The position numbers and the translations under genes were made by a program. Shown here piece by piece: positions 4,557 through 60,344 of a stretch of DNA of 64,000 nucleotides. Below the pieces are notes generated by a model. That model ran no database searches and had not been told where the DNA came from. It saw only the letters and a list, made by a program, of their open reading frames with translations. The stretch is from an uncultured Pelagibacteraceae bacterium (GTDB lineage Bacteria; Pseudomonadota; Alphaproteobacteria; Pelagibacterales; Pelagibacteraceae), in the NCBI GenBank assembly GCA_902534465.1, contig CACAPU010000001.1:62001-126000 (forward strand). Direction: 5' to 3'. Each line of letters starts with the position of its first letter. Position 1 is the stretch's first letter.

Positions 4557-5549
4557 TTACATTCCCCATCTCATTGCCGCTGTATGAACTGGTGAGTCCC
4601 AATGCTTTAAGATTTCATCATCACATTTGAGAAGAGTAATTGAAGCACCTTGCATTTCAAGTGATGTACAATAATTTCCAACTAAACTTTTTGTTACTTG
4701 AACACCCTTTGATTGTAAAATTTGACATGCATCCTCATAAACTAAATATAATTCTGTTAAAGGAGTGCCTCCCATTCCATTTACGAAAAGTAAATTCTTC
4801 TCATTTTTTTCTGGTTTTAAATTATCTAAAATAGCTTCAAGAATATTTCCTACAATCGTTTTTGAGGCTTGAATTTTTTCTCTTTTTCTCCCTGGCTCAC
4901 CGTGTATCCCTACACCAAACTCCATTTCATCATCGCCTATATCAAAAGTAGGTTTTCCTGCAGCAGGAACTGTGCAGCTTGTAAATGCAACTCCCATCGT
5001 ACCAGCGTTTTTATTTACTTTTTCACCAAGTTTTTTACATTCTTCGAGTGATCCGCCGTTTTCAGCTAAAGATCCAACTATTTTTTCTACTAATACTGTT
5101 GCTGCAACACCTCTTCTTCCAGTTGTAAATGTAGAGTCTTCAACAGCAACATCATCGTTAGTAACAATACTATCATTTTTGCCAGAGTACATTTCAGCTC
5201 CCATTTGAAAGTTCATTATGTCTCCAGAATAATTTTTAACAATAAATAAAACCCCTGCACCACTATCAACATGTTCTGCTGCTGCTTGCATTTGATCAGG
5301 CGTTGGTGCTGAAAATACAAAACCTGGGCATGCAGCATCTAACATTCCATGACCAACAAATCCTCCATGCATTGGTTCATGACCACTTCCGCCACCTGAA
5401 ATTAGGGAGACTTTTCCATTTTTGGTTTTATTTTTTCTTGAAACAAAACTTGGGTCTAGATTGACATTTATAATGTCGCTATGTGCCTTACCAAAACCTG
5501 TAAGGCTCTCTTTTAAAAAATCATCGTTATTGTTAATAAATTTTTTCAT
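4557..5549 (-). CDS. dhaK: Dihydroxyacetone kinase subunit DhaK-like
   Basis: KVSLISGGGSGHEPMHGGFVGHGMLDAACPG...DFRK-type fold; IVKNYSGDIMNFQMGAEM. Confidence 0.88.
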   Translation of the reverse strand: MKKFINNNDDFLKESLTGFGKAHSDIINVNLDPSFVSRKNKTKNGKVSLISGGGSGHEPMHGGFVGHGMLDAACPGFVFSAPTPDQMQAAAEHVDSGAGVLFIVKNYSGDIMNFQMGAEMYSGKNDSIVTNDDVAVEDSTFTTGRRGVAATVLVEKIVGSLAENGGSLEECKKLGEKVNKNAGTMGVAFTSCTVPAAGKPTFDIGDDEMEFGVGIHGEPGRKREKIQASKTIVGNILEAILDNLKPEKNEKNLLFVNGMGGTPLTELYLVYEDACQILQSKGVQVTKSLVGNYCTSLEMQGASITLLKCDDEILKHWDSPVHTAAMRWGM

Positions 5550-5557
5550 TTTCCCTC

Positions 5558-6184
5558 CTAATTATTAATTACTGATTTACAAATTGTATCGATTATAAGC
5601 TGTGAAGAACGGGCTCCAGGATCTATATGTCCTTTTGCACGTTCACCTAAAAAAGAAGCTCTACCTTTTGTGGCTAACATATCTTTTGTGGATAACATTC
5701 TTTCTTCAGCAATTTTTATTACTTCATTTAAACCTGATTTAAATTCATTTTCATTTTTTAATTCGTTAAGTTTTTCTGAAACTGGTATTAAAACATCCAT
5801 CATAGTCTTTTCTCCAACATCGGCTTTTCCTCTTTCTTTCATGGCTTTAATTCCACTAATAATCATTTCACATGCTTTATTAAAATCAACATCTTTATCT
5901 AGATCAGGAGATTTAGCCATGGTCATAAAAAAAGTTCCAAATAATGCGCCTGATGATCCACCGATACCTGACAGAACTTTCATTGCTATCATATTTAAAG
6001 CTTTGGCTAATGGTAAATCTTTGATTGAATCTTCAAGTTCAACAACTAACTTTAAACCTCTTTGAATGTTAAAAATATGGTCTCCGTCTCCAATTTTTTG
6101 ATCAAGAACCTCTATTTCAGCAGAATTTTCATCTATAACTTTTTGTACACTTTTTGCTTGAGAAATTAAAAAACTAACGCTCAT
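5558..6184 (-). CDS. dhaL: Dihydroxyacetone kinase subunit DhaL-like
   Basis: Start trimmed to MSVSFL; LDQKIGDGDHIFNIQRG, GGSSGALFGTFF, GEKTMMDVLIP, KGRASFLGERAKGHIDPGARSS. Confidence 0.88.
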   Translation of the reverse strand: MSVSFLISQAKSVQKVIDENSAEIEVLDQKIGDGDHIFNIQRGLKLVVELEDSIKDLPLAKALNMIAMKVLSGIGGSSGALFGTFFMTMAKSPDLDKDVDFNKACEMIISGIKAMKERGKADVGEKTMMDVLIPVSEKLNELKNENEFKSGLNEVIKIAEERMLSTKDMLATKGRASFLGERAKGHIDPGARSSQLIIDTICKSVINN

Positions 6185-7181
6185 AAATTCTGTTTCCTTC
6201 TTGATCAAATTTTAAAACTTTTTTATTATTGATGTCAAAATTAATTGTCTCATTTATTGATGATTTATAATTACCTTGAATTGACACAAGGATTTCTTGG
6301 TCTTTAAAATTTAAAGCAACTACTGTTTCAGAGCCTAGATTTTCAATTGAGATAATTTTGGCTGAGTGGTTACCATTTCCTATTGTAATATTCTCAGGTC
6401 TTATACCAAAAGTAGGTACATCATTCATTCCAAGTAAAGTTCCAGGCAGAATATTGATTTTTGGCGAACCCAATCTTTGCGAAACATATATAGAATTTGG
6501 ATTTTCATATATCTCTTCAGGAGTACCTATTTGCACCAAATGGCCTTCTTTTAAAACTCCAATTTTATCTGCTAAAGTAGTGGCTTCTGCTTGATCATGA
6601 GTAACATAAAGTATTGTTGCATTTAGATTGGTTTGAATGTTTTTTAATTCAACCCTTAAACTCTCTCTTAATTTAGCATCTAGAGAGGATAACGGTTCAT
6701 CCATCAAGTATAAATTTGGCTCACGAACTAGCGCACGTCCAATTGCAACTCTTTGCATCTCACCACCAGATAATTGTGTAGCTTTATTATTTAGCTTATT
6801 TGAAATCTTTAACATGCTTGCAATATTCTCAACCTTAGTTTTAATTTCATCCTCAGGTAATTTTCTCATTGGAGATCTTAAAGGGAATGCTAAATTTTCA
6901 TAAACACTATAGTGAGGATATAAAGAGTATTGTTGAAACACAAAACAAACATCTCTTGATGCTGGTTGATCTTCGGTTACGGACTCATCGTTAAATAGAA
7001 TACTTCCATTATCTATTTTCTCTAATCCAGCAATACATCTTAATGTAGTAGTTTTTCCAGCACCAGAGGGGCCTAATAAAACAAAAAACTGACCATCCTC
7101 AATGGTAAAATTTATATCATGTAAGGCCTCAATTTTTTTATTATAGGTTTTAGATAAATTTTTTAATTCTATTTTTGCCAT
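6174..7181 (-). CDS. Sugar ABC transporter ATP-binding protein (UgpC/MalK type)
   Basis: Walker A GPSGAGKTT, signature LSGGEMQRVAIGRAL, Walker B LYLMDEPLSSLDAKLR. Confidence 0.92.
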   Translation of the reverse strand: MAKIELKNLSKTYNKKIEALHDINFTIEDGQFFVLLGPSGAGKTTTLRCIAGLEKIDNGSILFNDESVTEDQPASRDVCFVFQQYSLYPHYSVYENLAFPLRSPMRKLPEDEIKTKVENIASMLKISNKLNNKATQLSGGEMQRVAIGRALVREPNLYLMDEPLSSLDAKLRESLRVELKNIQTNLNATILYVTHDQAEATTLADKIGVLKEGHLVQIGTPEEIYENPNSIYVSQRLGSPKINILPGTLLGMNDVPTFGIRPENITIGNGNHSAKIISIENLGSETVVALNFKDQEILVSIQGNYKSSINETINFDINNKKVLKFDQEGNRIYER

Positions 7182-8263
7182 TAATTCATAAACTCACTTT
7201 TAAGAGATTTATCAGTCTCACCATCAAAAATAATTATGTTATCATTTGAGGGTTTTACTTGAACATTTTCGTTGATTTTAACACTTGTTGAAATATCAGT
7301 TTTTACTTTGATTTCTCCAAAATTAGTTTTAACAGTTACAATTTTTCTTGAGCCTAAATATTCAACTCCAAATACTGAACCTTTAAGACCACCTTCGTTA
7401 GTAAGAGATAAATTTTCAGGACGAATACCAAATGAGTTTTTTTTGCCTTTTGATATCTCATACTGTTTAGGTATATTAAAATTTGTTCCTTCTATATTTA
7501 AAGTCGACTGTTCATTGGAAATCCCTTGATCAATACTTATAAAATTCATTCCAGGGGAGCCAATAAATGATGCTACAAATTTGGTAGCAGGTTTATTGTA
7601 GATTACTGAAGGTTCATCAGCTTGTAAAATTTCACCACCATCCATTACGGCAATACGATCAGCTAATGACATTGCCTCTAATTGATCGTGTGTTACATAA
7701 ACAGTGGTAGCGCCAATATCGATGTGTAATTTCTTAAGTTCTAAACACATTAATTCTCTAAATTCTGCATCCAAAGTACCTAAAGGCTCATCCATTAAAA
7801 ATGCTTTTGGTCTTCTCACTAAAGCTCTACCAAGAGCTACACGTTGTCTATCTCCACCCGATAAAGAAGAAATGTTGGAGTTTAAAATATGATCAATTCT
7901 TAAAAGTTTTGCTGCTTCTTCAACTCTAGTTTTAATTTCACTTCTAGTATAACCTTGCATTTTAAGTGGAAAAGATAGGTTATTTTTTACATTCATATGT
8001 GGATAGAGGGCAAACAATTGAAAAACGAAGGCAATATCTCTCTCAGATGCTCTTAACATTCCAACTTCTTCATCTCCTAAATAAATTTCTCCTGATGTTG
8101 GTAATTCTAATCCAGCAATCATTCTTAGAGTTGTTGTTTTTCCACATCCAGATGGGCCAAGCAAAACAAAAAACTCTTTATCATTAATTGTTAAATTAGA
8201 ATTTTTAACTGCAGTGAAATCTCCAAATGATTTTTGTAAATTTACTATTTTAATTTTAGACAT
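7181..8263 (-). CDS. Sugar ABC transporter ATP-binding protein (UgpC/MalK type)
   Basis: GPSGCGKTTTLRMIAG, LSGGDRQRVALGRAL, AFLMDEPLGTLDAEFR. Confidence 0.92.
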   Translation of the reverse strand: MSKIKIVNLQKSFGDFTAVKNSNLTINDKEFFVLLGPSGCGKTTTLRMIAGLELPTSGEIYLGDEEVGMLRASERDIAFVFQLFALYPHMNVKNNLSFPLKMQGYTRSEIKTRVEEAAKLLRIDHILNSNISSLSGGDRQRVALGRALVRRPKAFLMDEPLGTLDAEFRELMCLELKKLHIDIGATTVYVTHDQLEAMSLADRIAVMDGGEILQADEPSVIYNKPATKFVASFIGSPGMNFISIDQGISNEQSTLNIEGTNFNIPKQYEISKGKKNSFGIRPENLSLTNEGGLKGSVFGVEYLGSRKIVTVKTNFGEIKVKTDISTSVKINENVQVKPSNDNIIIFDGETDKSLKSEFMN

Positions 8264-8264
8264 A

Positions 8265-8456
8265 TTAATCCGGAAAGTGACTTGTGATTACGAAACCTAT
8301 AGTTCCAACTAAAATTACAATAAATGAGTAAGTATACATCCACATTGCAAATGGTTGCAACAACATGAAAACTCCTAATAAAATTAATACTGTAGATAAA
8401 TTTTCCCAGTAAACTCTTCTAAATATTTTTCTCATTAATGATTTTTCTTCTTGCAT
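8265..8456 (-). CDS. Small (63 aa) two-TM protein within sugar ABC operon
   Basis: Start trimmed to MQEEKSLMRKIFRRVYWENLS; TAATG overlap with permease stop at 8456-8458; hydrophobic segments VLILLGVFMLLQPFAMWMYTYSFIVILVGTIGFVI. Confidence 0.75.
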   Translation of the reverse strand: MQEEKSLMRKIFRRVYWENLSTVLILLGVFMLLQPFAMWMYTYSFIVILVGTIGFVITSHFPD

Positions 8457-9400
8457 TATTTTCTCACTGCTCCAAAAGTAATACCTCTCAAAAGGTGTTT
8501 TCTTAAAATAATTGTAAAAATCATCACTGGTAATAAAAATAAAGTTGTACCAGCCCCAATAGCAGGCCAATCCAAACCTCCTTCTCCTATAATTGTCGGG
8601 ATGAATGGTGGAGCTGTTTGTGCGTTAAATTGAGTGAGGAGAACAGCAAATGCATATTCGTTCCATGAAAAAATCATGCAAAAGATTGCTGTTGCAGCAA
8701 TACCGGTCATCGCTTGTGGAAGAACAACTTTAAAGAACGCTTGAAGTCTAGAATATCCATCAATCATAGCTGCTTCTTCGTATTCTTTAGGAATTTCATC
8801 CATAAATCCTTTTAAAAGCCATACTGCTAAACTTAAATTTACTACTGTATATAATATGATCATTCCAAGGTGAGTATCCCCTAAACCTAATTTTCTATAC
8901 ATAATGAATATTGGAACAGCCACCGCTATTGGTGGAAACATCCTGGTAGAAAGAATAAAAAATAATAAATCATCTTTTAATGGAACTCTAAATCTCGAGA
9001 AAGCATACGCCGCTAATGCGCCCAAAAATACGGATGCAAAAGTTGACCCAAAGCCAATTATCATTGAATTTGAGTATCTACCTAAAAATTTTGATGGCCC
9101 CGTTATGACCATTTCTCTACTTCTAACTAATTCTTCATACCAAGTTTCTGGAGCTGGCAAAGAGTCAAGATATTCCTGAGATTGCCTAGATCTATTAGTG
9201 AACAAGTTAACATATCCCTCTAAAGATGGTTCAAACAATACTTCAGGTGGATAAGAAATTGCACTATTAACATTCTTAAAACTTGTCATTACCATCCAAG
9301 AAATAGGTATCAATGTTATTACTGTGTAAACAATAATAATTGTTGCAGCAAGTTTCTTTGAAAACGATGAAGGTTCTAAATATGATCTGGATGTATCCAT
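8456..9400 (-). CDS. Sugar ABC transporter permease (MalG type)
   Basis: EAAMIDGYSRLQAFFKVVLPQAMTGIAATAIF EAA loop. Confidence 0.92.
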   Translation of the reverse strand: MDTSRSYLEPSSFSKKLAATIIIVYTVITLIPISWMVMTSFKNVNSAISYPPEVLFEPSLEGYVNLFTNRSRQSQEYLDSLPAPETWYEELVRSREMVITGPSKFLGRYSNSMIIGFGSTFASVFLGALAAYAFSRFRVPLKDDLLFFILSTRMFPPIAVAVPIFIMYRKLGLGDTHLGMIILYTVVNLSLAVWLLKGFMDEIPKEYEEAAMIDGYSRLQAFFKVVLPQAMTGIAATAIFCMIFSWNEYAFAVLLTQFNAQTAPPFIPTIIGEGGLDWPAIGAGTTLFLLPVMIFTIILRKHLLRGITFGAVRK

Positions 9401-10299
9401 CAGCGTTCCTTTATTTTATTCATTACTTTTACATATACATTTCCAAAACCAAAAATAGTTACAAATAAAATGACAGCAAAAGCTGAACTGTAACCAGTTT
9501 TCCATTTTTCAAATGCTTCTCTTTTTAAATTGATTGAGGCGAGCTCTGTAGCTGAACCAGGGCCACCAGATGTAAGTTCAACGACCATGTCGAACATTTT
9601 GAAATTCTCAATCCCTCTAAATAACAAAGCCAACAATAAAAATGGTAATACAGATGGTAGTGTGATGTATATAAATTGTTGCCATTTACTAGCTCTATCA
9701 ACTTCAGCAGCCTCATATAAATAATTTGGAACTGATCTTAGACCGGCTAAACAAATCAACATTGTAAAAGGTGTCCACATCCAAGTATCAACTATAACTA
9801 TTGACCAAGGTGCGAGTTCACTTGAACCAATCATATCAAAACTTCCAAAATCGTAAAAAAAGTTTACTACGTAATTAAATAAACCTACTTGAGGATTATA
9901 AAGATAAGTCCAAAAAACACCCACAACAGCAGGCGATAACATCATAGGTAATACTATTAGTGTGGTTAATAATTCATTACCTTTAAATTTCCTGTTTAAT
10001 AATAAAGCCAAACCTAATCCTATTACTGCCTGAAGTAACAAAGTCCAAAACATAAAGTTTGCAGTAACCTGCATTTTTTCCCATATGGCCTCTTTATTGA
10101 GAACCTTTATATAATTTTTTAAACCAACAAACTGTGGTTCTCTCCCAATTTTATTTGCGTAAAAATTTGTAAAAGACATTCTGATTGCATAAATCAAAGG
10201 ATAAATATTTATCGCCAATAAAAGAAAGACAGATGGTCCAATGAAAAGCCATGCTACAGCCTTATCAGAAAGTCCTTTAAATTTTTTTTTAACGCTCAT
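9400..10299 (-). CDS. Sugar ABC transporter permease (MalF type)
   Basis: EAAEVDRASKWQQFIYITLPSVLPFLLLALLFRG EAA loop, six TM. Confidence 0.92.
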   Translation of the reverse strand: MSVKKKFKGLSDKAVAWLFIGPSVFLLLAINIYPLIYAIRMSFTNFYANKIGREPQFVGLKNYIKVLNKEAIWEKMQVTANFMFWTLLLQAVIGLGLALLLNRKFKGNELLTTLIVLPMMLSPAVVGVFWTYLYNPQVGLFNYVVNFFYDFGSFDMIGSSELAPWSIVIVDTWMWTPFTMLICLAGLRSVPNYLYEAAEVDRASKWQQFIYITLPSVLPFLLLALLFRGIENFKMFDMVVELTSGGPGSATELASINLKREAFEKWKTGYSSAFAVILFVTIFGFGNVYVKVMNKIKER

Positions 10300-10312
10300 A
10301 TGATTTTTTTAA

Positions 10313-10346
10313 GAAAAAAGGGGAGATATTACCTCCCCTTTTTTTT
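10313..10346 (-). terminator. Intrinsic-terminator-like hairpin between SBP and permease genes
   Basis: GGGGAG(10320-10325)/CTCCCC(10333-10338) stem extended by A-run/T-run on both sides; minus-strand transcript reads ...ggggaggtaatatctccccuuuuuucuu. Confidence 0.8.
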
Positions 10347-10366
10347 TATATTTTTAAATATTAATG

Positions 10367-11671
10367 TTAAAGTTTTCCGTCTGCTTCAAATACTTCAACC
10401 CACTCTTCGATAATTTTATCTAGAGCGCCTTTAGCAGTTCCTTTTCCATTAACAACGTAATCATGAATAGCTTCCTGCATAGGTAACATTAACTCAACAA
10501 ATGTTGGTTCTTGCCAAAAATCTTTGACAATTCCCATTGAGTCCAAGAAACCTTGGGCATAAACTGTAGATGTAGGGAACGATGGTGAATTTAATACATC
10601 ATTATGACATGAATATCCGCCTAAATCCCACCATTTTTGCTGTACATCTGGTCTTGCAAACCATTTAATATATTCTAATGCAAGATCTTGTTTATCTGAA
10701 TATTTAACAACAGATATACCTTGTCCACCTAATGTTGCAGCAGCTACGTTTTGTTTTGGATTTGCAAAGAAACCACTAACTCTTCCGTCGCTATCTTCTT
10801 TAGAAACACCTGGCCAAAAAGCATACCAGTTCATTTGGAATGCTACTTGTCCTGATTTATATGCATCTAAGTTTGCTACCATATAAGCATCAGAGTGTCC
10901 TGGAGGAGCACAGTCCTCATATAATTTTCTATAGAACTCTACAGCTTCTACTGCTTGCGGAGAATTGAAATAACCTTCCATATCGTACGGTTTGTTTGGA
11001 TTTTCATACTCCATACCCCATGCATACATAGCAGCAGTTACACCCATTGTAATACCTTCAGATCCACGCTCTGTATTTATAGCAGCACCGTATCTTTTTT
11101 GACCATCAATTTCTCTTCCTTGGAAAAAAGTACACATGTCATATAGCTGATCCCAACTAGCAGGTACACCTAAATCATAACCATGTTTCTTTTTGAATTC
11201 AGATTTAAGCTCAGGTCTATCAAACCAGTCTTTTCTATAAGCCCATGCTAATGCATCTCCCATAGCTGGTAGTGCATAATAGTTTTCACTTCCTTTTGGC
11301 CATGTTGAATACGCATAAACTGTTGCAGGTGAGAAATCGTTCATTGAAATTCCTTCTTTATCAAAAAAGTCATTCAATTTTACGTAGTGTCCATACACTG
11401 CACCAGCACCGATCCATTGTGAGTCACCAATTAACAAGTCAAAAGTTTTACCTTTGTTGTTAAGTTCGTTCAACATACGATCAGCAAAATTAGGCCATGG
11501 TACGAATTCGAAGTTAACATCTATTCCTGTCTCTGCTGTAAACTCTTTTGTAAGTTCTTGTAGTGCATTAGCAGGGTCCCAAGCGGCCCATCCTAATGTT
11601 ATTGACTTAGCATTTGAATTTGCAGAAAAAGTAAATAGAGAAACAAACAATAAAATCATTATTTTTTTCAT
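10367..11671 (-). CDS. Carbohydrate ABC transporter substrate-binding protein
   Basis: Start trimmed to MKKIMILLFVSLFTFSANSNA signal peptide; SBP_bac_1-like, GWAAWDPANALQELTKEFTAETGIDVNFEFVPW. Confidence 0.88.
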   Translation of the reverse strand: MKKIMILLFVSLFTFSANSNAKSITLGWAAWDPANALQELTKEFTAETGIDVNFEFVPWPNFADRMLNELNNKGKTFDLLIGDSQWIGAGAVYGHYVKLNDFFDKEGISMNDFSPATVYAYSTWPKGSENYYALPAMGDALAWAYRKDWFDRPELKSEFKKKHGYDLGVPASWDQLYDMCTFFQGREIDGQKRYGAAINTERGSEGITMGVTAAMYAWGMEYENPNKPYDMEGYFNSPQAVEAVEFYRKLYEDCAPPGHSDAYMVANLDAYKSGQVAFQMNWYAFWPGVSKEDSDGRVSGFFANPKQNVAAATLGGQGISVVKYSDKQDLALEYIKWFARPDVQQKWWDLGGYSCHNDVLNSPSFPTSTVYAQGFLDSMGIVKDFWQEPTFVELMLPMQEAIHDYVVNGKGTAKGALDKIIEEWVEVFEADGKL

Positions 11672-11786
11672 TTTATCTCCTATTAATTTAATTATTCTTA
11701 ATAATAGTCTATCCAAGAAGACTTGTGCCTGCTAGTATTTTTTTTGTAAAAAATAGTTGGGTAAAAATTAAAGAGAAAGGGGAATT

Positions 11787-12842
11787 ATGAACAAAATAAA
11801 AGGTCCTGCAATTTTCCTAGCACAATTTGTAGGCGAAGATGCACCGTTTAATTCTTTAGATAATATTTGCAAATGGGCATCATCTCTTGGTTACAAAGGT
11901 ATACAAATTCCAAGTTGGGATGGTAGATTAATTGATTTAAAAAAAGCATCTGAAAGTAAAGATTATTGTGATGAGATTAAAGGAATTGCTAAATCACACA
12001 ATTTAGAAATTACAGAATTATCAACTCACCTACAAGGTCAACTTGTTGCAGTACATCCTGCTTATGACACTGCCTTTGATGGTTTTGCTGCACCTGAAGT
12101 AAGAGGAAATCCCAAAGCAAGACAAGAATGGGCTGTAAATCAATTAATGATGGCTGGAAAAGCATCAAACAGTCTAGGAATAGATAAACATGTAACTTTT
12201 TCAGGAGCACTTGCTTGGCCTTATGTTTACCCTTGGCCTCAGAGACCTGAAGGGTTAATTGAAAATGCATTTGATGAACTATCAAAAAGATGGAAGCCAA
12301 TTCTTGATCACTTTGATAATAATGGGGTTGATTTATGTTATGAAATACATCCAGGTGAAGATCTTCATGATGGTGTAACTTTTGAAATGTTCTTAGAAAG
12401 AGTTGGTAATCACAAAAGATGTAATATGCTTTTTGATCCAAGTCATTATGTTCTACAGCATCTGGATTATTTAGCTCATATTGACATTTATCATGAGAAG
12501 ATAAAAATGTTTCACGTTAAAGATGCTGAGTTAAATCCATCTGGGAAACAAGGAGTGTACGGTGGATTTCAATCATGGGTAAATAGAGCTGGTAGATTTA
12601 GATCGCTTGGTGATGGACAAGTTGATTTTAAATCTATATTTTCAAAATTAACTTCATATGATTATGATGGTTGGGCAGTTCTTGAATGGGAATGCTGCCT
12701 TAAACATCCAGAAGATGGAGCAAGAGAGGGAGCAGAATTTATTAAAAATCATATAATTAATACAACAGAAAAAGCTTTTGATGATTTTGCAGGTAGCGGA
12801 GCTGACCATGAAGCAAACAAAAAAATGCTAGGCATTAATTAA
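11787..12842 (+). CDS. Sugar phosphate isomerase/epimerase (AP-endonuclease-2-like TIM barrel)
   Basis: GVDLCYEIHPGEDLHDG, CNMLFDPSHYVLQ, MFHVKDAELNP, WAVLEWECCLKHPEDGAREGAEFI; SD-like aaagggg upstream. Confidence 0.85.
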   Translation: MNKIKGPAIFLAQFVGEDAPFNSLDNICKWASSLGYKGIQIPSWDGRLIDLKKASESKDYCDEIKGIAKSHNLEITELSTHLQGQLVAVHPAYDTAFDGFAAPEVRGNPKARQEWAVNQLMMAGKASNSLGIDKHVTFSGALAWPYVYPWPQRPEGLIENAFDELSKRWKPILDHFDNNGVDLCYEIHPGEDLHDGVTFEMFLERVGNHKRCNMLFDPSHYVLQHLDYLAHIDIYHEKIKMFHVKDAELNPSGKQGVYGGFQSWVNRAGRFRSLGDGQVDFKSIFSKLTSYDYDGWAVLEWECCLKHPEDGAREGAEFIKNHIINTTEKAFDDFAGSGADHEANKKMLGIN

Positions 12843-48070: not shown

Positions 48071-48700
48071 TTATTTTGTCACTTCATATAGACCAAGCCA
48101 TGCATTTACATCTTTACTAGCAATATAATCAGATTTAAAAAACTCTATTTCTTTCCATTTATTTTCATTTTTTAATTGTTTGATTTTTTTATCAAATCCA
48201 TATTCCTCATATATTCCCTCGTTAATAGTGAAACAAATTAGACCTTTATTTTTAGTAATTCTAATAAACTCATCTAATGCAGGTGGTTTTACATGTCCAA
48301 AAGTAAATGTGCCCACACACATTAAAGCATCATATTGATCATCCTTTTCCTTGATTGGTTTATTTAAATCTACTTTATCTAATTTTTTATAAAGGTTATT
48401 TGGAACCAAATCTAAAAGTTTTTGGGATAGATCGGCACCAAAAAAATTAGTGAAACCATACTTTTTCAATTCTACACCAACCAATCCAGTTCCACATCCA
48501 GCATCATAAATATTAATATCTTTTTCTTTTTGATGTTTATTGAAAACTTCTGCTGTTTCCTTTGGGCCAGTATAATTCCATTCAACCATATCTTTATCAT
48601 ATTTATTATCCAAACCCCATTCGTCATAAAAATCCATCACCTCTTTTGTTTCTTTTAGTTTATAAATTGGAACTTTGTTACCTACATCTTTTTGGGCCAT
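48071..48700 (-). CDS. Class I SAM-dependent methyltransferase
   Basis: INIYDAGCGTGLVGVELKKYGFTNFFGADLSQKLLDLV. Confidence 0.88.
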   Translation of the reverse strand: MAQKDVGNKVPIYKLKETKEVMDFYDEWGLDNKYDKDMVEWNYTGPKETAEVFNKHQKEKDINIYDAGCGTGLVGVELKKYGFTNFFGADLSQKLLDLVPNNLYKKLDKVDLNKPIKEKDDQYDALMCVGTFTFGHVKPPALDEFIRITKNKGLICFTINEGIYEEYGFDKKIKQLKNENKWKEIEFFKSDYIASKDVNAWLGLYEVTK

Positions 48701-51105
48701 TACCCTCTCATTTTTTCTCCACTTGGATCATAAAGTGCTTCTTTGATAATTGAACAATTGAATAAATCACCATTAATTTCTACTTGTATTCCATCTTCAG
48801 ATGATAAATTTTTTTGATCTAGATATGAAAAAGCAACACTTTTATTTACAAAATGAGCAAATCCACCTGAAGTTATATACCCAATGCTATTATCTCCCTT
48901 CATTACTGCTTCATTGTTTGTGACATCTATGTCGTTTGTTTGAATTATTAAAGGAACTAATCTATTCGAGCTATTGTCTTGTTTAGCTTTTTCTTTACCA
49001 ATAAATTCTTTGTTCCAATTAATGAAACTTTCTAATCCAGTTTCTTTAGCAGTAAAATCAGGTCGATAGTCTAAAGTCCACGCACCCCAATTTTTCTCTA
49101 GTCTCATAGACATTAAAGCTCTTCCACCAAAAGGTTTAATACCAAATTCTTTTCCCGCCTCCATTAACTCCTCATAAAGTTTAATTTGGAAATGTGGCGC
49201 AACATATATTTCATAACCAAGTTCACCCGTGAATGAAATTCGGTTTATAATTGCTGGAACACCTCCAACAAACATTCTTCTTGAGTCTCTAAATCTAAAT
49301 TTTTCATTAGATACATCGTCTCTAACTATTTTTTCTAAAACTTTTCTCGAATTAGGTCCTGCTATAGATATTCCATGAAATTCATCTGATCTATTTTTAT
49401 ATTCAACATTAAATTTATCTAAATGGCTTTCAAACCAACGTCTATGCATTTCTTGAGCTGCACCTGAACCAAAAACCATAAATTCGTTTTCATCAAGGCA
49501 TGAAACTGTAAGATCGCCACATAATTTTCCTCTATAAGATAACATTGGAGATAACGATATTCTTCCAGGATTTGGAAGCTTACCTGCCATAATATGATCT
49601 AAAAATTTTCTTGCATCTTTTCCTTTAAATTGATGTTTTGAAAAATTAGCAACTTCAATAAAACCAACATTTTCTCTTACATTAATAACTTCTTTGGAGA
49701 CATAATTATGCGATCTAGATCTTTTTATAGTTGGCTCTTCGTATGCATCTTTTTTATCATTTGCAAACCACAAAACATTTTCTAAACCAAAGCTGTCTCC
49801 CATAACCGCTCCTTGTTCTACAAACCGATCATAAAGAGCTGTTGTTTTTTGTTTTCTTCCTTTTGGTAAAGTTTCATTTGGAAATGTCATAATAAATCTT
49901 CGTTCATAATTTTCAGAAGATTTAATTGTTCCGTATTGAGGTGATGCATAATCTCCAAATCTTGCAACATCCATTGCCCAAACATCTATTGATGGTTCTC
50001 CGTCAATTATCCATTCAGCAATACATTTTCCAACTCCTCCTCCTTGACAAAAACCAGCCATTACACCCACTGCTACCCAATAATTTTTCATTCCGGGAAC
50101 AGGTCCAATTAATGGTGATCCATCAGGTCCAAAAGTAAAAGGCCCATTTACAATATTTTTAATTCCTGCCTTTTCTAACGCTGGCATTCTTTCAAAACCT
50201 ATTGCTAATCTATCTTGAATATTATCTAGTTTTGGTTCTAATAACTCATGACCAAAATTCATAGGTGTTCCTTCAACCTTCCATGGTGTTGATTTTGGTT
50301 CATAAGTTCCAAGAAGCATTCCTTTTCCTTCTTGTCTAAAATAAATGTTACCTTCAAAATCAGTTCCAATAGGAATTCTTTGATCACCCATTGCTTCAAT
50401 TTCTGGAATAGCTTCAGTGATTAAGTAGTGATGCTCCATTGGTTGAACTGGTAGATTAATTCCTGCAAGCTGTCCAACTTCTCTTGCCCATAAACCTCCA
50501 GCGTTAATAACTATTTCAGCTTTTATATTGCCCTTGTCAGTTATCACATCCCAACTTCCATCCTCTTTTTGTTTTGTGTCTTTTACAACTGTATGTGTAT
50601 AATATTTTCCACCATGAACTTTTGCTGCTTTAGCAAAAGCATAAGTCACACCTGATGGGTCTACTTCCCCATCAATTGGATCCCACAATGCTAGAAGGTA
50701 TCTTGATGGATCAATTAAAGGATTTTTCTTTTTTACTTCCTCTAAAGAAACAAACTCTTGGTCAAGACCCATATATCTTGCTTTAGACCTCTCTCTTTTT
50801 AAATAATCCGCCCAAACATCATTTGAAGCCAAATAAAATCCCCCACTTGATTTGAATCCAACTGAATGGCCAGACTCTTTTTCAATTTCTTTGTACAATC
50901 CGATTGTATAAGCCATCATTCTAGAAATATTTGGGTCAGATGAAATCACATGTACATTTCCAGCTGCATGCCAAGAGGATCCAGATGTGAGTTCATTTCT
51001 TTCAAGAAGAATACAATCTTTTAAACCAAACTTTGATAAATGATAAAGAATGGAACAGCCTACTACGCCGCCACCTATGATGACTACTTTTGCATGATTT
51101 TGCAT
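48700..51105 (-). CDS. FAD-dependent oxidoreductase + GcvT domain (dimethylglycine dehydrogenase-like)
   Basis: VVIIGGGVVGCSILYHLSKFGLKDCILLERNELTSGSSWHAAGNVHVI; GcvT C-terminus; abuts BHMT. Confidence 0.9.
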   Translation of the reverse strand: MQNHAKVVIIGGGVVGCSILYHLSKFGLKDCILLERNELTSGSSWHAAGNVHVISSDPNISRMMAYTIGLYKEIEKESGHSVGFKSSGGFYLASNDVWADYLKRERSKARYMGLDQEFVSLEEVKKKNPLIDPSRYLLALWDPIDGEVDPSGVTYAFAKAAKVHGGKYYTHTVVKDTKQKEDGSWDVITDKGNIKAEIVINAGGLWAREVGQLAGINLPVQPMEHHYLITEAIPEIEAMGDQRIPIGTDFEGNIYFRQEGKGMLLGTYEPKSTPWKVEGTPMNFGHELLEPKLDNIQDRLAIGFERMPALEKAGIKNIVNGPFTFGPDGSPLIGPVPGMKNYWVAVGVMAGFCQGGGVGKCIAEWIIDGEPSIDVWAMDVARFGDYASPQYGTIKSSENYERRFIMTFPNETLPKGRKQKTTALYDRFVEQGAVMGDSFGLENVLWFANDKKDAYEEPTIKRSRSHNYVSKEVINVRENVGFIEVANFSKHQFKGKDARKFLDHIMAGKLPNPGRISLSPMLSYRGKLCGDLTVSCLDENEFMVFGSGAAQEMHRRWFESHLDKFNVEYKNRSDEFHGISIAGPNSRKVLEKIVRDDVSNEKFRFRDSRRMFVGGVPAIINRISFTGELGYEIYVAPHFQIKLYEELMEAGKEFGIKPFGGRALMSMRLEKNWGAWTLDYRPDFTAKETGLESFINWNKEFIGKEKAKQDNSSNRLVPLIIQTNDIDVTNNEAVMKGDNSIGYITSGGFAHFVNKSVAFSYLDQKNLSSEDGIQVEINGDLFNCSIIKEALYDPSGEKMRG

Positions 51106-51106
51106 G

Positions 51107-52147
51107 TTAGTATTTTACTTCTTTATTGACGTCTTTCAATGTCTTGTCTGTCCCATGGTGAAAATGTTTAGTCATATCTGGCATGTACTTCATGGCAATT
51201 GGTTTTTTACCAACTGCAACAGCCATTTGTCTAACATGATGAGCTTCAGCACCACAACAAATACCGATTAAATTAATTTTTTCTTTAAGACATTCTTTTG
51301 CAAATTCAGCCATTTCAAATCTGTTACAATATAAATTATCTAGAGCAACAGGGAATGCATTTCCTCCAGGAATGCAGTCACATCCGTGATCTGTCTGATT
51401 CAAAAATCCTGGTTCTTCCTCTGTTGTTCTATATGGAACAGGAAGACCTGCAACATGACAGGAAACTTTTTTTCTTATTTTTTTTAAAAGTTTCATGGTC
51501 ATTTCTGGACCTCTATAACAATTCAAACCAACAACATCAGCACCAAGATCTTCAATTATTTTACATGCGTCTTCAGCAGTGTGGCCATCTCTTGTCAAAT
51601 CACCACGAGGTATTGCATAATTGGCAACTGCAATCAAACCTTCATCCTTAATTGCTTTTAAAGCTATCTTCATTTCATCTACCCAATTAATTGTTTCTGC
51701 AACTACAAAGTCAACTCCTGCCTCTTTGGCCCAAAGCACTTGCTCTTCGTACATCTTTTGACATTCTTTGAATGAGTTTTTGTCTTTTGGATCAAAAATA
51801 TTTGTATTAGCAACATCTCCACAAACCATTAAGTCTAAATCTTTAAATTCTTTCGCAGCATCCTTTGCAATTTTAAGTGCATTTTTTTGCATCGGCTCTA
51901 GCAAATGTTCTTTTCCAATAATTCTTAATTTCTCTCTATGTCCATAATAGGTGAAAGCTTGAACAATATCTGAACCAGCTCTAATAAATTCTCTATGTAA
52001 TTGTGTAACTACATCTGGATGCTCTAAAACTACTTCTGGCACAAATGGACCTGCAGAAAGATATCCTCTCCTTTCCATCGCAAATAAATATCCCTCTGCG
52101 AATATAACGGGACCCTCATCTAATCTTGATAATAAATTTTTATTCAT
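51107..52147 (-). CDS. bhmT: Betaine-homocysteine S-methyltransferase-like
   Basis: LDEGPVIFAEGYLFAMERRGYLSAGPFVPEVVLEHPD, VVGLNCYRGPEMTMKLL, LIGICCGAEAHHVRQMA Zn-Cys motif. Confidence 0.88.
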   Translation of the reverse strand: MNKNLLSRLDEGPVIFAEGYLFAMERRGYLSAGPFVPEVVLEHPDVVTQLHREFIRAGSDIVQAFTYYGHREKLRIIGKEHLLEPMQKNALKIAKDAAKEFKDLDLMVCGDVANTNIFDPKDKNSFKECQKMYEEQVLWAKEAGVDFVVAETINWVDEMKIALKAIKDEGLIAVANYAIPRGDLTRDGHTAEDACKIIEDLGADVVGLNCYRGPEMTMKLLKKIRKKVSCHVAGLPVPYRTTEEEPGFLNQTDHGCDCIPGGNAFPVALDNLYCNRFEMAEFAKECLKEKINLIGICCGAEAHHVRQMAVAVGKKPIAMKYMPDMTKHFHHGTDKTLKDVNKEVKY

Positions 52148-56406: not shown

Positions 56407-56952
56407 ATGCTAGCACAATTTCTAGAGATTTTTTTTAAATCCTTAAAGTTAGATAGAAGCTTATACAAAGATAATAAATACTTTGGAGAAGCTGCAATAT
56501 ATTTTGCAGGTCTTGTAATGATACTGGATGGAGTTGCAGGTGCTGTAGCGGCAAATTCAATTATTAAAACTTCAGTTGGTATTTCTGGTTTGACGGCCCT
56601 TTTAACATGGTTTGTTTGGGCAATTTTTATTTTTGTAATTGGTGTTAAAATTTTTCCTGACAAAGGCAGCAAAGTTCCATTTAAAAAAGTATTAATTGCC
56701 GTAGGATATGCTCACGCACCAGGTTTAATAAGATTTTTTGCAGTTACACCAGACTTAGTTTTGCCAATTATTTTTCTTACACAGTTTTGGATATTTGCGT
56801 CTTTAATTATATCTACAAAGCAAATATTAAATTTAAGGTCTAATCTAAAATCTTTTGGAGTAGTATTTTTATCTTTTCTTATAATTGCTTTTCTCTCAAT
56901 AACATTCATTATAAATAGAATGAACTCAATCCCAGTCAGCAATATAAGTTAA
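56407..56952 (+). CDS. YIP1-family-like membrane protein
   Basis: Multiple TM segments, VGYAHAPGLIRFFAVTPDLVLPIIFLTQFWIFASLIISTKQIL. Confidence 0.65.
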   Translation: MLAQFLEIFFKSLKLDRSLYKDNKYFGEAAIYFAGLVMILDGVAGAVAANSIIKTSVGISGLTALLTWFVWAIFIFVIGVKIFPDKGSKVPFKKVLIAVGYAHAPGLIRFFAVTPDLVLPIIFLTQFWIFASLIISTKQILNLRSNLKSFGVVFLSFLIIAFLSITFIINRMNSIPVSNIS

Positions 56953-57116
56953 AGAGGAAATACAGTCTTTGAGGTTCTACAAGATTTGCACAACTTGTAT
57001 CCTGTCAAAATTAAATTTTGTGTAACACTTTCATCTTCTTTATGACATTCTTCACAAATCTCGTCTAAATCTTTTAAATTTTTCTCCAAAAAATCATCTT
57101 TTTTTTTATCAGTCAT
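56949..57116 (-). CDS. 55-aa CxxC/CxxC putative zinc-ribbon miniprotein, not in supplied ORF track
   Basis: Translated by hand: MTDKKKDDFLEKNLKDLDEICEECHKEDESVTQNLILTGYKLCKSCRTSKTVFPL*; 8-nt overlap (ATGACTGA) with upstream DUF3726-like CDS. Confidence 0.7.
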   Translation of the reverse strand: MTDKKKDDFLEKNLKDLDEICEECHKEDESVTQNLILTGYKLCKSCRTSKTVFPL

Positions 57117-57717
57117 TATCTGTTAAACCAGCCCCTGCAGTTCTTGATTTAGACTCCTCGCTTTCCTCAACATAAGTTTTAATTGAAAGTTTATGCATTT
57201 CTAACCATTCGTCCTCGGAGAAGTTATTTTTATTATCTAAAAATTTAATATTTATTTTGTCTGATTTTTCTAAAATATCCCCACTTAAATAATTAGAATA
57301 AATAGATTCATTAAAATTAAACAAAAACTCTTTATTGTCCATTTTTAAGAATATTCTTTTACCAATAATCTCTGACGCCCTACTCAAAAAAGATAAAAAT
57401 ATCAGAGGAAAAGCTATTTTATTAATTTCAATTTCATTAAATTTTAAAATTACAGGAGATTGATCATAAAAATTTAACCCACAAAGTATCGGACAATAAT
57501 ATCCTTTTGCTGTATTTGAAGGAGAAATTTCTCCAATATTTTCAAAGTTACTAATATTATAAATTTTAAAGTATTGGTTAAGATTTTTAAGTCCTGGCAA
57601 ACCAAACATTTCAAGCAATCTTATATTTTTTCCAACTTCCTCAGAAATACCCCATGAAAAACCTTTAGCCTTAGTTGCTCTTTTAATTGTAGTTTCTATC
57701 TCGCTATAACTTCTCAT
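57109..57717 (-). CDS. DUF3726-like protein
   Basis: SYSEIETTIKRATKAKGFSWGISEEVGKNIRLLEMFGLPGLKNL...GYYCPILCGLNFYDQ. Confidence 0.65.
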   Translation of the reverse strand: MRSYSEIETTIKRATKAKGFSWGISEEVGKNIRLLEMFGLPGLKNLNQYFKIYNISNFENIGEISPSNTAKGYYCPILCGLNFYDQSPVILKFNEIEINKIAFPLIFLSFLSRASEIIGKRIFLKMDNKEFLFNFNESIYSNYLSGDILEKSDKINIKFLDNKNNFSEDEWLEMHKLSIKTYVEESEESKSRTAGAGLTDND

Positions 57718-57723
57718 ACGAAA

Positions 57724-59376
57724 TTAATTATACATCCAATAATTATCAAAATTTGAGAGTTCTGATGGCAAAGGTGCGCCCTGAAACATGCAAATACGTA
57801 ACCATTTGTCTGATCTAGGATCAAATTTTATTGCACCAAAAAAAGACAACTTAAGCCTTAACATATCAATAGGCATTAATTTATAACCAATTGTATTATC
57901 TTGAATTTCTGCATAAGGACATTTTTCAGAAATAAATACTCTTCTTACTACATGTCTTAAATGATTGTTATCCAATAAAAATTTTCCAATTTTGGAACTA
58001 TTTTTTTTTGTGAATACTATTTCATAAAGCTTTTTGATATCTCTTGCGATTGCAAGTGGTTGTTCTAAATTTGATCCATCATCGATATACCTATCCCCTA
58101 TTCTTGGCTCCTCTTTATTTTTTGAAATAAACCAGAAATTTTTATTATTTTCCTCCTTACTAAAATCAATTTTCAAAATTTCAGAGTAATTCTTTTCAAT
58201 TATATTTCTCAAATCTTCAACAGTTCTTTCAACAGGAATATTGAAGTATTTTTCTTCATTTGAACTCATTTTAGATACTAAAGGATCTACTATTTTATCA
58301 TATGGCTCCATCATCATAGAAACAATATACTCAATACATTCATCATTTAAATTCTCCTCAGCCCAAATATAAATATTATTAAATTGATAAGAATTTTCAA
58401 ATTTAAACTCATCTTTCATAAATTTTATAAATTTTTTTAAATCTAATATTAAATTTTTAATTTTTTCTTTTTGAAATTCGCTGTCAGTATGCCAGCTAGT
58501 AATATTTTTTAGTGATTTAATTAAACACTGATAAAAAATATCTAAATCATTTTTAGAAACTTTTTCTATTTCTCTTATTTTTTTTAAAACTGTTTCTCTA
58601 GCAGTTATCCAATTATTAAGTAAAGTGGGATGGTTTACTATAAATGGTGCCATACCAAGTCCTGTAGAATTTCCTATTCCTAGAGTTCTGCTGATATTAT
58701 TATCTAGTTCAACAGCATTCTTCGGACTAATACTTTTTGCAATATGATTAACTTGGTCAAGTGTGAATTGTCTAACTAAATAAACCAACATCATCTCTAG
58801 TCTAAATGGCCCACAAATTTCATCCCTATTTTTAATCCTAAATCTATCAGCTAAACCAAATTTACCAGATCCATAGACTGCAGTGGTTCTATAAAGATAA
58901 CCAATTTTAGATATAAATTCTTTATCTGGTTGTTGACCTTTTGACAAATTTTCAACTACATGATTAAACAACCTGACAGATTTATTAGCTCTTGATAGAG
59001 TTAATTCTTTGTAAGATAGCCTTCCGACCTCTTGTTTAGGCACATTATTACTAAGTCTATCAACATCTTCTTTAGTTGGAATTCCATCAAATAGAGTAAA
59101 TGCAGCATCCCATTTAGTGGCTATAACTCTATCTGATCTTTCGTCATCCTTAATTTCATTTGCAAAACAAATTAAAGAATAAGTTTTTTTTTCTTTAGTA
59201 AAAGAGTAAATTGCTCTTCCAAATCCTTTGTCGTTTAATTGAAAAAGGTCTCTACTATATTTCCAATCTTTAAACTCTTTTAAGAAAGATCTCAAAAAAG
59301 AGAGTTTTGATTGATGAAAAGAACCAAGTTTAGACAACTTCATCAGAAATTTAGGGTCTCTTAACTTAATTTCCAT
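57724..59376 (-). CDS. Large conserved-looking protein of unknown function (550 aa)
   Basis: Long intact ORF coupled by TAATG to the M19 dipeptidase; no family recognised. Confidence 0.8.
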   Translation of the reverse strand: MEIKLRDPKFLMKLSKLGSFHQSKLSFLRSFLKEFKDWKYSRDLFQLNDKGFGRAIYSFTKEKKTYSLICFANEIKDDERSDRVIATKWDAAFTLFDGIPTKEDVDRLSNNVPKQEVGRLSYKELTLSRANKSVRLFNHVVENLSKGQQPDKEFISKIGYLYRTTAVYGSGKFGLADRFRIKNRDEICGPFRLEMMLVYLVRQFTLDQVNHIAKSISPKNAVELDNNISRTLGIGNSTGLGMAPFIVNHPTLLNNWITARETVLKKIREIEKVSKNDLDIFYQCLIKSLKNITSWHTDSEFQKEKIKNLILDLKKFIKFMKDEFKFENSYQFNNIYIWAEENLNDECIEYIVSMMMEPYDKIVDPLVSKMSSNEEKYFNIPVERTVEDLRNIIEKNYSEILKIDFSKEENNKNFWFISKNKEEPRIGDRYIDDGSNLEQPLAIARDIKKLYEIVFTKKNSSKIGKFLLDNNHLRHVVRRVFISEKCPYAEIQDNTIGYKLMPIDMLRLKLSFFGAIKFDPRSDKWLRICMFQGAPLPSELSNFDNYWMYN

Positions 59377-60344
59377 TAATTAATTCCTTTATAAAAATTA
59401 AACCAATTGTTTCCTAAAATATCATTTACTTCATTTTCATTAAAACCTATTTTTTTCAATCCTTTTTCTAAATTACTAAACCCTCTTGCATCAATAAACC
59501 ATTCAGGTTGATTAGGAAATTGTGGTTTACTTTTGCTCCCTTCACCATAATTTTTTGTTTTACTCCACGTTCCATTCCTCATCCACTCAACGATACTATC
59601 TGGTTGATTCAAACAAAGGTCAGAACCAATGCCTATATTTTTTACTCCCATTATTTCAACAGTTTTTGCAACCATTTCACAAAAGCTATCTAATTTACAG
59701 TTCGTTCCATCTTTCAGATGATGTGCATACAAAGAAAGCCCAAGCATTCCTCCACTGTTTGATAAATGTTTTAAAAGTGTTTCAGATTTATTTCTTAAAG
59801 CACTATGCCAAAAAGATGGATTAGCATGAGTAATTGCAATTGGTTTTTCACTAATATCTATAGCGTCCAATGTACTTTTTTCACCTGAATGCGACATATC
59901 AATAACTATTCCAATTCGATTCATTTCTTTTATAGCTTCTCTTCCAAAATTTGTTACACCAGAGTCATTTTTTTCATAACATCCTGTAGCTAAAAGAGAT
60001 TGGTTATTGTAAGTAAGTTGCATGAATCTACATCCATGATGATGAACTTTCTCAATTAAATTAATATCATCCTCAATTGGAGAACAGTTTTGAAAGCCAA
60101 AAAATATTGCAGTTTTATTTTCTGACTTAGCCTTTATTATATCCTCAAAAGTTTTTCCCGGAAATATTAGATCTGAATTTTCATTAAATAAGTTATCCCA
60201 TTCTTTTAATTTAATTAAAAATTCATCATAGTCCTCATGATATACTACTGTCGCATGCACTGCGTTCAGTCCAGCATCTCTGTTGATTTTAAAAATATCT
60301 CTTGACCAGTTGCAATATTGAAGATTATCAATTCGATAATTCAT
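59376..60344 (-). CDS. M19 (membrane/renal) dipeptidase-family protein
   Basis: GCRFMQLTYNNQSLLATGCYEKNDSGVTNFGREAIKEMNRIGIVIDMSHSGEKSTLDAI, ITHANPSFWHSALRN, IGIGSDLCLNQPDS. Confidence 0.88.
   Translation of the reverse strand: MNYRIDNLQYCNWSRDIFKINRDAGLNAVHATVVYHEDYDEFLIKLKEWDNLFNENSDLIFPGKTFEDIIKAKSENKTAIFFGFQNCSPIEDDINLIEKVHHHGCRFMQLTYNNQSLLATGCYEKNDSGVTNFGREAIKEMNRIGIVIDMSHSGEKSTLDAIDISEKPIAITHANPSFWHSALRNKSETLLKHLSNSGGMLGLSLYAHHLKDGTNCKLDSFCEMVAKTVEIMGVKNIGIGSDLCLNQPDSIVEWMRNGTWSKTKNYGEGSKSKPQFPNQPEWFIDARGFSNLEKGLKKIGFNENEVNDILGNNWFNFYKGIN

Follow-up and report, generated by a model that had tools for sequence, protein, structure and literature searches.

What do the dipeptidase-like protein, the 550-residue protein and the DUF3726 protein encoded side by side in a SAR11 genome do together? 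The three genes, called M19, P550 and DUF3726 here, lie in a 64-kb part (the window) of the 1.1-Mb genome of a Pelagibacter-like SAR11 bacterium. As we discuss below, it is quite likely that they form the core of a cassette for the breakdown of a zwitterionic, N-methylated N-heterocycle. The best candidate for this substrate is homarine (N-methylpicolinate); its degradation would yield N-methylglutamate, which would then pass via N-methylglutamate dehydrogenase (Mgd) to glutamate and a folate-bound one-carbon (C1) unit. Speaking for this reading are the conservation of the core, a P550-DUF3726 fusion, a wider operon with betaine-type transporters in other lineages, neighbouring genes of the Mgd clade, and a soxBDAG operon near M19. 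From the conserved gene set and order, the wider operon and the Mgd-clade neighbours, all of which are observed, we infer the substrate and every single step.

The three-gene core and its wider operon

First, the core is conserved. P550 was present in 138 of 197 Pelagibacterales genomes and in 53 of 385 sampled Alphaproteobacteria, and plasmid-borne copies also occurred in Roseobacteraceae, rhizobia, Caballeronia, Variovorax, Vibrio, and the haloarchaeon Natrinema; none was found in the viral contigs searched. M19 lay no more than 4 kb from P550 in 27 of 31 alphaproteobacterial loci outside the Pelagibacter set. In 49 of the 55 loci read, which span distant lineages, a short partner gene came directly after P550, frequently overlapping it by 4 nt; the other six comprised one fusion and five that the open-reading-frame rule used did not resolve. 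In the fusion (Mesorhizobium sp. 131-2-1, locus L182, 8956-11400), P550 and DUF3726 are a single gene of 814 codons' worth of protein (814 aa). Because of this fusion and the partner gene directly downstream of P550 in distant lineages, the two proteins probably form one complex. The conclusion that M19, P550 and DUF3726 are a conserved metabolic unit tied to betaine or methylated-amine catabolism is supported. The Mesorhizobium gene is also a ready-made construct for structural work.

In the window, the M19 stop and P550 start overlap by 1 nt at 59376, a gap of 6 nt (57718-57723) separates P550 from DUF3726, and DUF3726 overlaps the gene of a Cys4 miniprotein by 8 nt (57109-57116). An earlier note had joined these four minus-strand reading frames into one unit and suggested a multi-subunit metabolic or maturation complex; its frames, coordinates, overlaps and gap all match the sequence. 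The grouping is not a product of chance, as the M19/P550 overlap is retained in 106 of 112 Pelagibacter loci and the DUF3726/Cys4 overlap likewise in 106 of 112. Four real genes in this local layout therefore stand, and M19, P550 and DUF3726 are found as a group in Pelagibacterales and well outside that order, but the functional unit and the probable P550-DUF3726 complex do not extend to Cys4, which separates from the others.

Second, the core belongs to a larger operon elsewhere. Aliiroseovarius, Ruegeria TM1040, Aminobacter, Mesorhizobium and Phaeobacter have the order LysR - ALDH (aldehyde dehydrogenase) - M19 - (BCCT) - P550 - DUF3726 - Ldh-family oxidoreductase, accompanied by transporters of the BCCT, glycine-betaine ABC or other types. 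The highest-scoring models for the operon ALDH were those of 2,5-dioxovalerate dehydrogenase and 2-oxoglutarate-semialdehyde dehydrogenase, although the scores stayed under the equivalog cut-offs. Five structural genes and a regulator thus stand together in Roseobacteraceae and Aminobacter, whereas the window groups three genes only; in a genome of the other SAR11 family (L177), an ALDH-Ldh pair adjoins DUF3726 and points away from it.

Third, the Aliiroseovarius, TM1040 and Phaeobacter clusters adjoin an operon annotated as sarcosine oxidase beta-delta-alpha-gamma (soxBDAG), and related operons lie near P550 at loci L162 and L163. We placed their alpha subunits in a tree whose reference identities were set by gene context: Mgd references (Aminobacter, R. 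etli, Sphingobium) lie beside mgsABC, with glnT in one, and sarcosine oxidase references are followed by glyA and a serine ammonia-lyase gene. The three roseobacter alpha subunits and that of L163 fell in the Mgd clade (support 99/98), the sarcosine oxidases formed their own clade (100/100), and the L162 subunit was a long branch without placement. An AraC-type gene beside roseobacter soxBDAG had been considered as a TmaR-like marker; it was dropped in favour of the tree because DJ-1/AraC regulators accompany several such operons. The adjoining operon of roseobacters and L163 thus belongs with MgdABCD by clade and lies outside the cassette; the SAR11 copy may be either Mgd or the heterotetrameric sarcosine oxidase SoxBDAG.

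According to PMC13390433, which cites Nat Microbiol 2026 11:1531, Mgd takes part in homarine catabolism, and the roseobacter R. pomeroyi consumes homarine rapidly (PMC12817926). Given this reported role of Mgd and the Mgd-clade operons that adjoin the cassette, we read the window's genes as the probable SAR11 form of the homarine pathway. A homarine operon, homABCDER, is reportedly present in Rhodobacterales and SAR11 and is said to yield N-methylglutamate and glutamate. The roseobacter cluster agrees with that description: it has five structural genes and a regulator, it is found in Rhodobacterales and SAR11, and it is linked to Mgd. Pelagibacter differs in holding three genes together, without LysR, ALDH or Ldh_2. 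The present analysis itself yielded the Mgd-clade neighbour, the likely DUF3726-Ldh_2 link, the unusual metal site of M19, and the separation of Cys4 from the cassette.

Table 1. Genes of the cassette and its immediate neighbours (window positions).
Feature	Position	Strand	Basis
M19-family amidohydrolase, 322 aa, first cassette gene	59376-60344	-	Pfam PF01244, 3.4e-67
P550, 550 aa, proposed large subunit of ring-opening enzyme	57724-59376	-	Conserved gene, no Pfam/NCBIfam match
DUF3726 protein, 202 aa, proposed small subunit	57109-57717	-	Pfam PF12525, 7.5e-21
Cys4 miniprotein, 55 aa, neighbour judged outside cassette	56949-57116	-	Open reading frame; distribution
Yip1-family membrane protein, outside cassette	56407-56952	+	Pfam PF04893, 1.1e-7

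The cassette proteins and a putative route for homarine

The M19 protein matches PF01244 over the full length of the domain, and its closest solved chain is PDB 2i5g (7.2e-57). The canonical two-zinc site of the family consists of an N-terminal HxD, a bridging Glu, two His and an Asp. The cassette protein keeps H152, H173 and D242, as expected for the family, but differs from it in that HxD is missing and Gln (Q85) replaces the bridging Glu in 34 of 34 cluster members; in the alignment, 2i5g, to whose subgroup the protein is closest, carries the same HxD/Glu replacements. With HxD missing and the bridging Glu replaced, a classical two-zinc dipeptidase is unlikely.

DUF3726 scored 74.2 bits against PF12525 (cut-off 22.1), and a text search of the literature found no paper on the family. 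A profile of all P550 partners was colinear with the N-terminal half of Ldh_2 (PF02615) over 154 columns (E 3e-6, probability 88%), and control profiles compared with the partners (M19, ALDH, P550, reversed Ldh_2) gave E > 0.07; because these profile-profile E-values are for single pairs, the Ldh_2 link is likely rather than proven. The partners in the core cassettes and those of distant P550s share similarity (E 1.9e-15), and distant partners matched Pfam Ldh_2 themselves, that of Natrinema at 4.8e-9 (36.2 bits, just under the gathering cut-off of 38.8) and that of Variovorax at E 0.005. An AlphaFold model of DUF3726 reached a pLDDT of 58.4, and a Foldseek comparison with the PDB returned nothing significant; the top query-normalised template modelling (TM) score among the matches listed, 0.41, belonged to the Ldh_2-type oxidoreductase YiaK (E 2.8), which is suggestive only. 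DUF3726 differs from Ldh_2 in length (about 200 aa versus about 333) and, in the alignment, in missing the catalytic SHG motif and the C-terminal part; its own extreme C-terminus, GAGAGLxDND, is kept in most members. DUF3726 is thus likely to be a remote, degenerate relative of Ldh_2 dehydrogenases and, given the missing motif and C-terminal part, is probably a non-catalytic or repurposed subunit. On the Natrinema versiforme plasmid pNVE500 (L193, 8965-11621), P550 and a 317-aa partner lie beside a BCCT transporter and an ALDH; this partner is a possible early form of the subunit.

Neither Pfam nor NCBIfam had a match for P550, and none of its matches to PDB sequences was credible, whether it was used as a single sequence or as a 39-member profile; against PDB sequences, the profile gave weak helical matches only. 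P550 also showed no similarity to Ldh_2. Its AlphaFold model, built from a SAR11-only alignment, was unusable (pLDDT 48.6, pTM 0.31). Most invariant positions hold Arg, Gly, Asp/Glu, Asn, Pro or an aromatic residue; among them are R83, D90, R163, G233-x-G235-N236, E423 and R425. Invariant Cys are absent, and H249 is the only nearly invariant His. This pattern speaks against an iron-sulfur enzyme or a typical two-His non-haem iron oxygenase and would leave flavin, nicotinamide or cofactor-free chemistry.

Homarine has seven carbons and N-methylglutamate six, so one nitrogen-bound ring carbon (C6) must leave. In the route we propose, P550 and its DUF3726 partner would cleave the C5-C6 bond of the ring, so that the nitrogen carries a formyl group and C5 becomes an aldehyde. 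M19, acting as an amidohydrolase and not as a dipeptidase, would strip the formyl group; an Ldh_2-type reductase would saturate the remaining unsaturation; the ALDH, related to 2-oxoglutarate-semialdehyde dehydrogenases, would oxidise C5; and Mgd would turn N-methylglutamate into glutamate and the folate-bound C1 unit. In Pelagibacter, unlinked paralogues would have to supply the ALDH and Ldh_2 steps. Such a route would share with the trigonelline (tgn) pathway the opening of an N-methylpyridinium carboxylate ring via an N-formyl-N-methyl intermediate. The tgn pathway, however, uses a flavin monooxygenase/reductase pair, whereas the libraries searched revealed no resemblance of P550 or DUF3726 to known oxygenases.

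Tentatively, P550 and DUF3726 might represent an enzyme class of its own, with two subunits, that opens pyridinium rings and has no recognisable relative of solved structure. A degenerate Ldh_2 dehydrogenase would have been recruited to it as a structural or activating partner, and a divergent branch in rhizobia and their relatives would handle a different N-heterocycle. We consider this idea less likely than not.

The divergent P550 branch (about 25-33% identity) has the order P550 - short partner - M19 - ABC transporter at L192 (S. meliloti 1021 pSymB 387147-408820), L225, L226 and L227; the last three have an IclR gene upstream and gabT or succinate-semialdehyde dehydrogenase genes nearby. 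For the pSymB branch in S. meliloti, trigonelline was considered as substrate. This assignment was weakened by the failure of a strain lacking pSymA to grow on trigonelline (PMC4207669), so that pSymB alone is insufficient.

Rival substrates and the neighbouring Cys4 miniprotein

Several observations weigh against the homarine reading. M19 was not nearby in 4 of the 31 non-SAR11 loci, and P550 is without an assigned fold or cofactor. No ALDH or Ldh_2 gene was found at the Pelagibacter cassette, and the paralogues in this genome are 30-38% identical. One ALDH-Ldh pair, on contig C4 of the same genome, was considered for the missing steps and judged unconvincing, since it is 30-37% identical and belongs to a distinct cluster with a TRAP transporter; that cluster (L221, G000:C4:34000-48000, 5274-12062) holds an Ldh_2 oxidoreductase, a hydrolase-like gene, an ALDH and a TRAP-type transporter. 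Finally, this small genome has two soxBDAG operons, one 4.8 kb beyond M19 and just outside the window (window-equivalent 65168-70274; L209 6168-11274) and a second at L210 69-5138, and both paralogues branch on the sarcosine-oxidase side. By this tree either of the two may be Mgd and the other sarcosine oxidase; PMC3160333 did not decide between them either.

A similar cassette could instead lead from another betaine or N-methyl imino acid, such as N-methylproline or pipecolate betaine, to N-methylglutamate. The BCCT and glycine-betaine ABC transporters and the Mgd link would suit several N-methylated compounds. Substrates of the N-methylproline or pipecolate-betaine type, however, have no obvious need for an amidohydrolase in every cluster, and the Mgd-linked pathway reported for marine bacteria in PMC13390433 is that of homarine. 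A substrate of this kind is unlikely.

That the cassette serves demethylation of glycine betaine, dimethylglycine and sarcosine is suggested by genes upstream in the window, a dimethylglycine-oxidase-like gene (48700-51105), a BHMT-like gene (51107-52147), and opuAC-like and permease genes, and by pepD, which in Vibrio natriegens and P. aeruginosa precedes dgcAB (PMC12093977). The earlier note had pointed to the nearby betaine-demethylation genes. These are not the key link: most other lineages have P550 without them, the informative neighbour elsewhere is the Mgd-type soxBDAG operon, and the roseobacter-linked operon belongs to the Mgd clade, not to that of sarcosine oxidase. Betaine demethylation also has no place for ALDH and Ldh_2, and we consider a role in it improbable. 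The gene families identified in the window and the annotations of the P550 loci that were read include neither dgcA nor dgcB, a comparison in which no dgc query sequence was used.

The Cys4 miniprotein, which has no Pfam match above cut-off, is better understood as half of a pair with the Yip1-family gene. The two are convergent, overlapping by 4 nt in the window (56949-56952), and were convergent in 107 of 107 loci holding both. The pair persists at L212 and L213, which lack the cassette, and at L211, where the cassette sits elsewhere in the genome; in G005 the pair maps to about 279 kb and the cassette to about 790 kb, roughly 510 kb away. In two genomes without P550 (G017 and G048) the order Yip1 - Cys4 - purE is intact and the cassette is gone from between Cys4 and purE, and two genomes of another genus have a Yip1-like/Cys4 pair without P550. 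Tests of f2-family genomes, most of which carry P550, turned up no Cys4, and neither did BLAST in non-SAR11 P550 loci. It was therefore rejected as a cassette member and is treated as a neighbour that overlaps DUF3726 through a local arrangement specific to the lineage. That all four proteins form one complex, with Cys4 as zinc-binding subunit or maturation factor, would suit the retained 8-nt overlap and the four cysteines, invariant in 10 of 10 aligned sequences, and is nonetheless highly improbable given how often Cys4 and the cassette occur apart.

Cys4 is seen at the 3' ends of different genes, DUF3726 in Pelagibacter and an unrelated 391-aa gene at L214 (G007), where a Cys4 homologue (7765-7920) overlaps that gene's end beside tripartite-tricarboxylate-type transporter genes.

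What a homarine cassette would mean

Homarine is an abundant phytoplankton metabolite, and SAR11 bacteria are among the most abundant in the ocean. If the homarine reading is true, the presence of P550 in so many of the sampled Pelagibacterales genomes suggests that the cassette may mark a main surface-ocean route from a methylated pyridine to glutamate and C1 units. Ring opening would then rest on a protein family without a known fold, and genes labelled 'dipeptidase', 'hypothetical' and 'DUF3726' would gain a joint role in many genomes.

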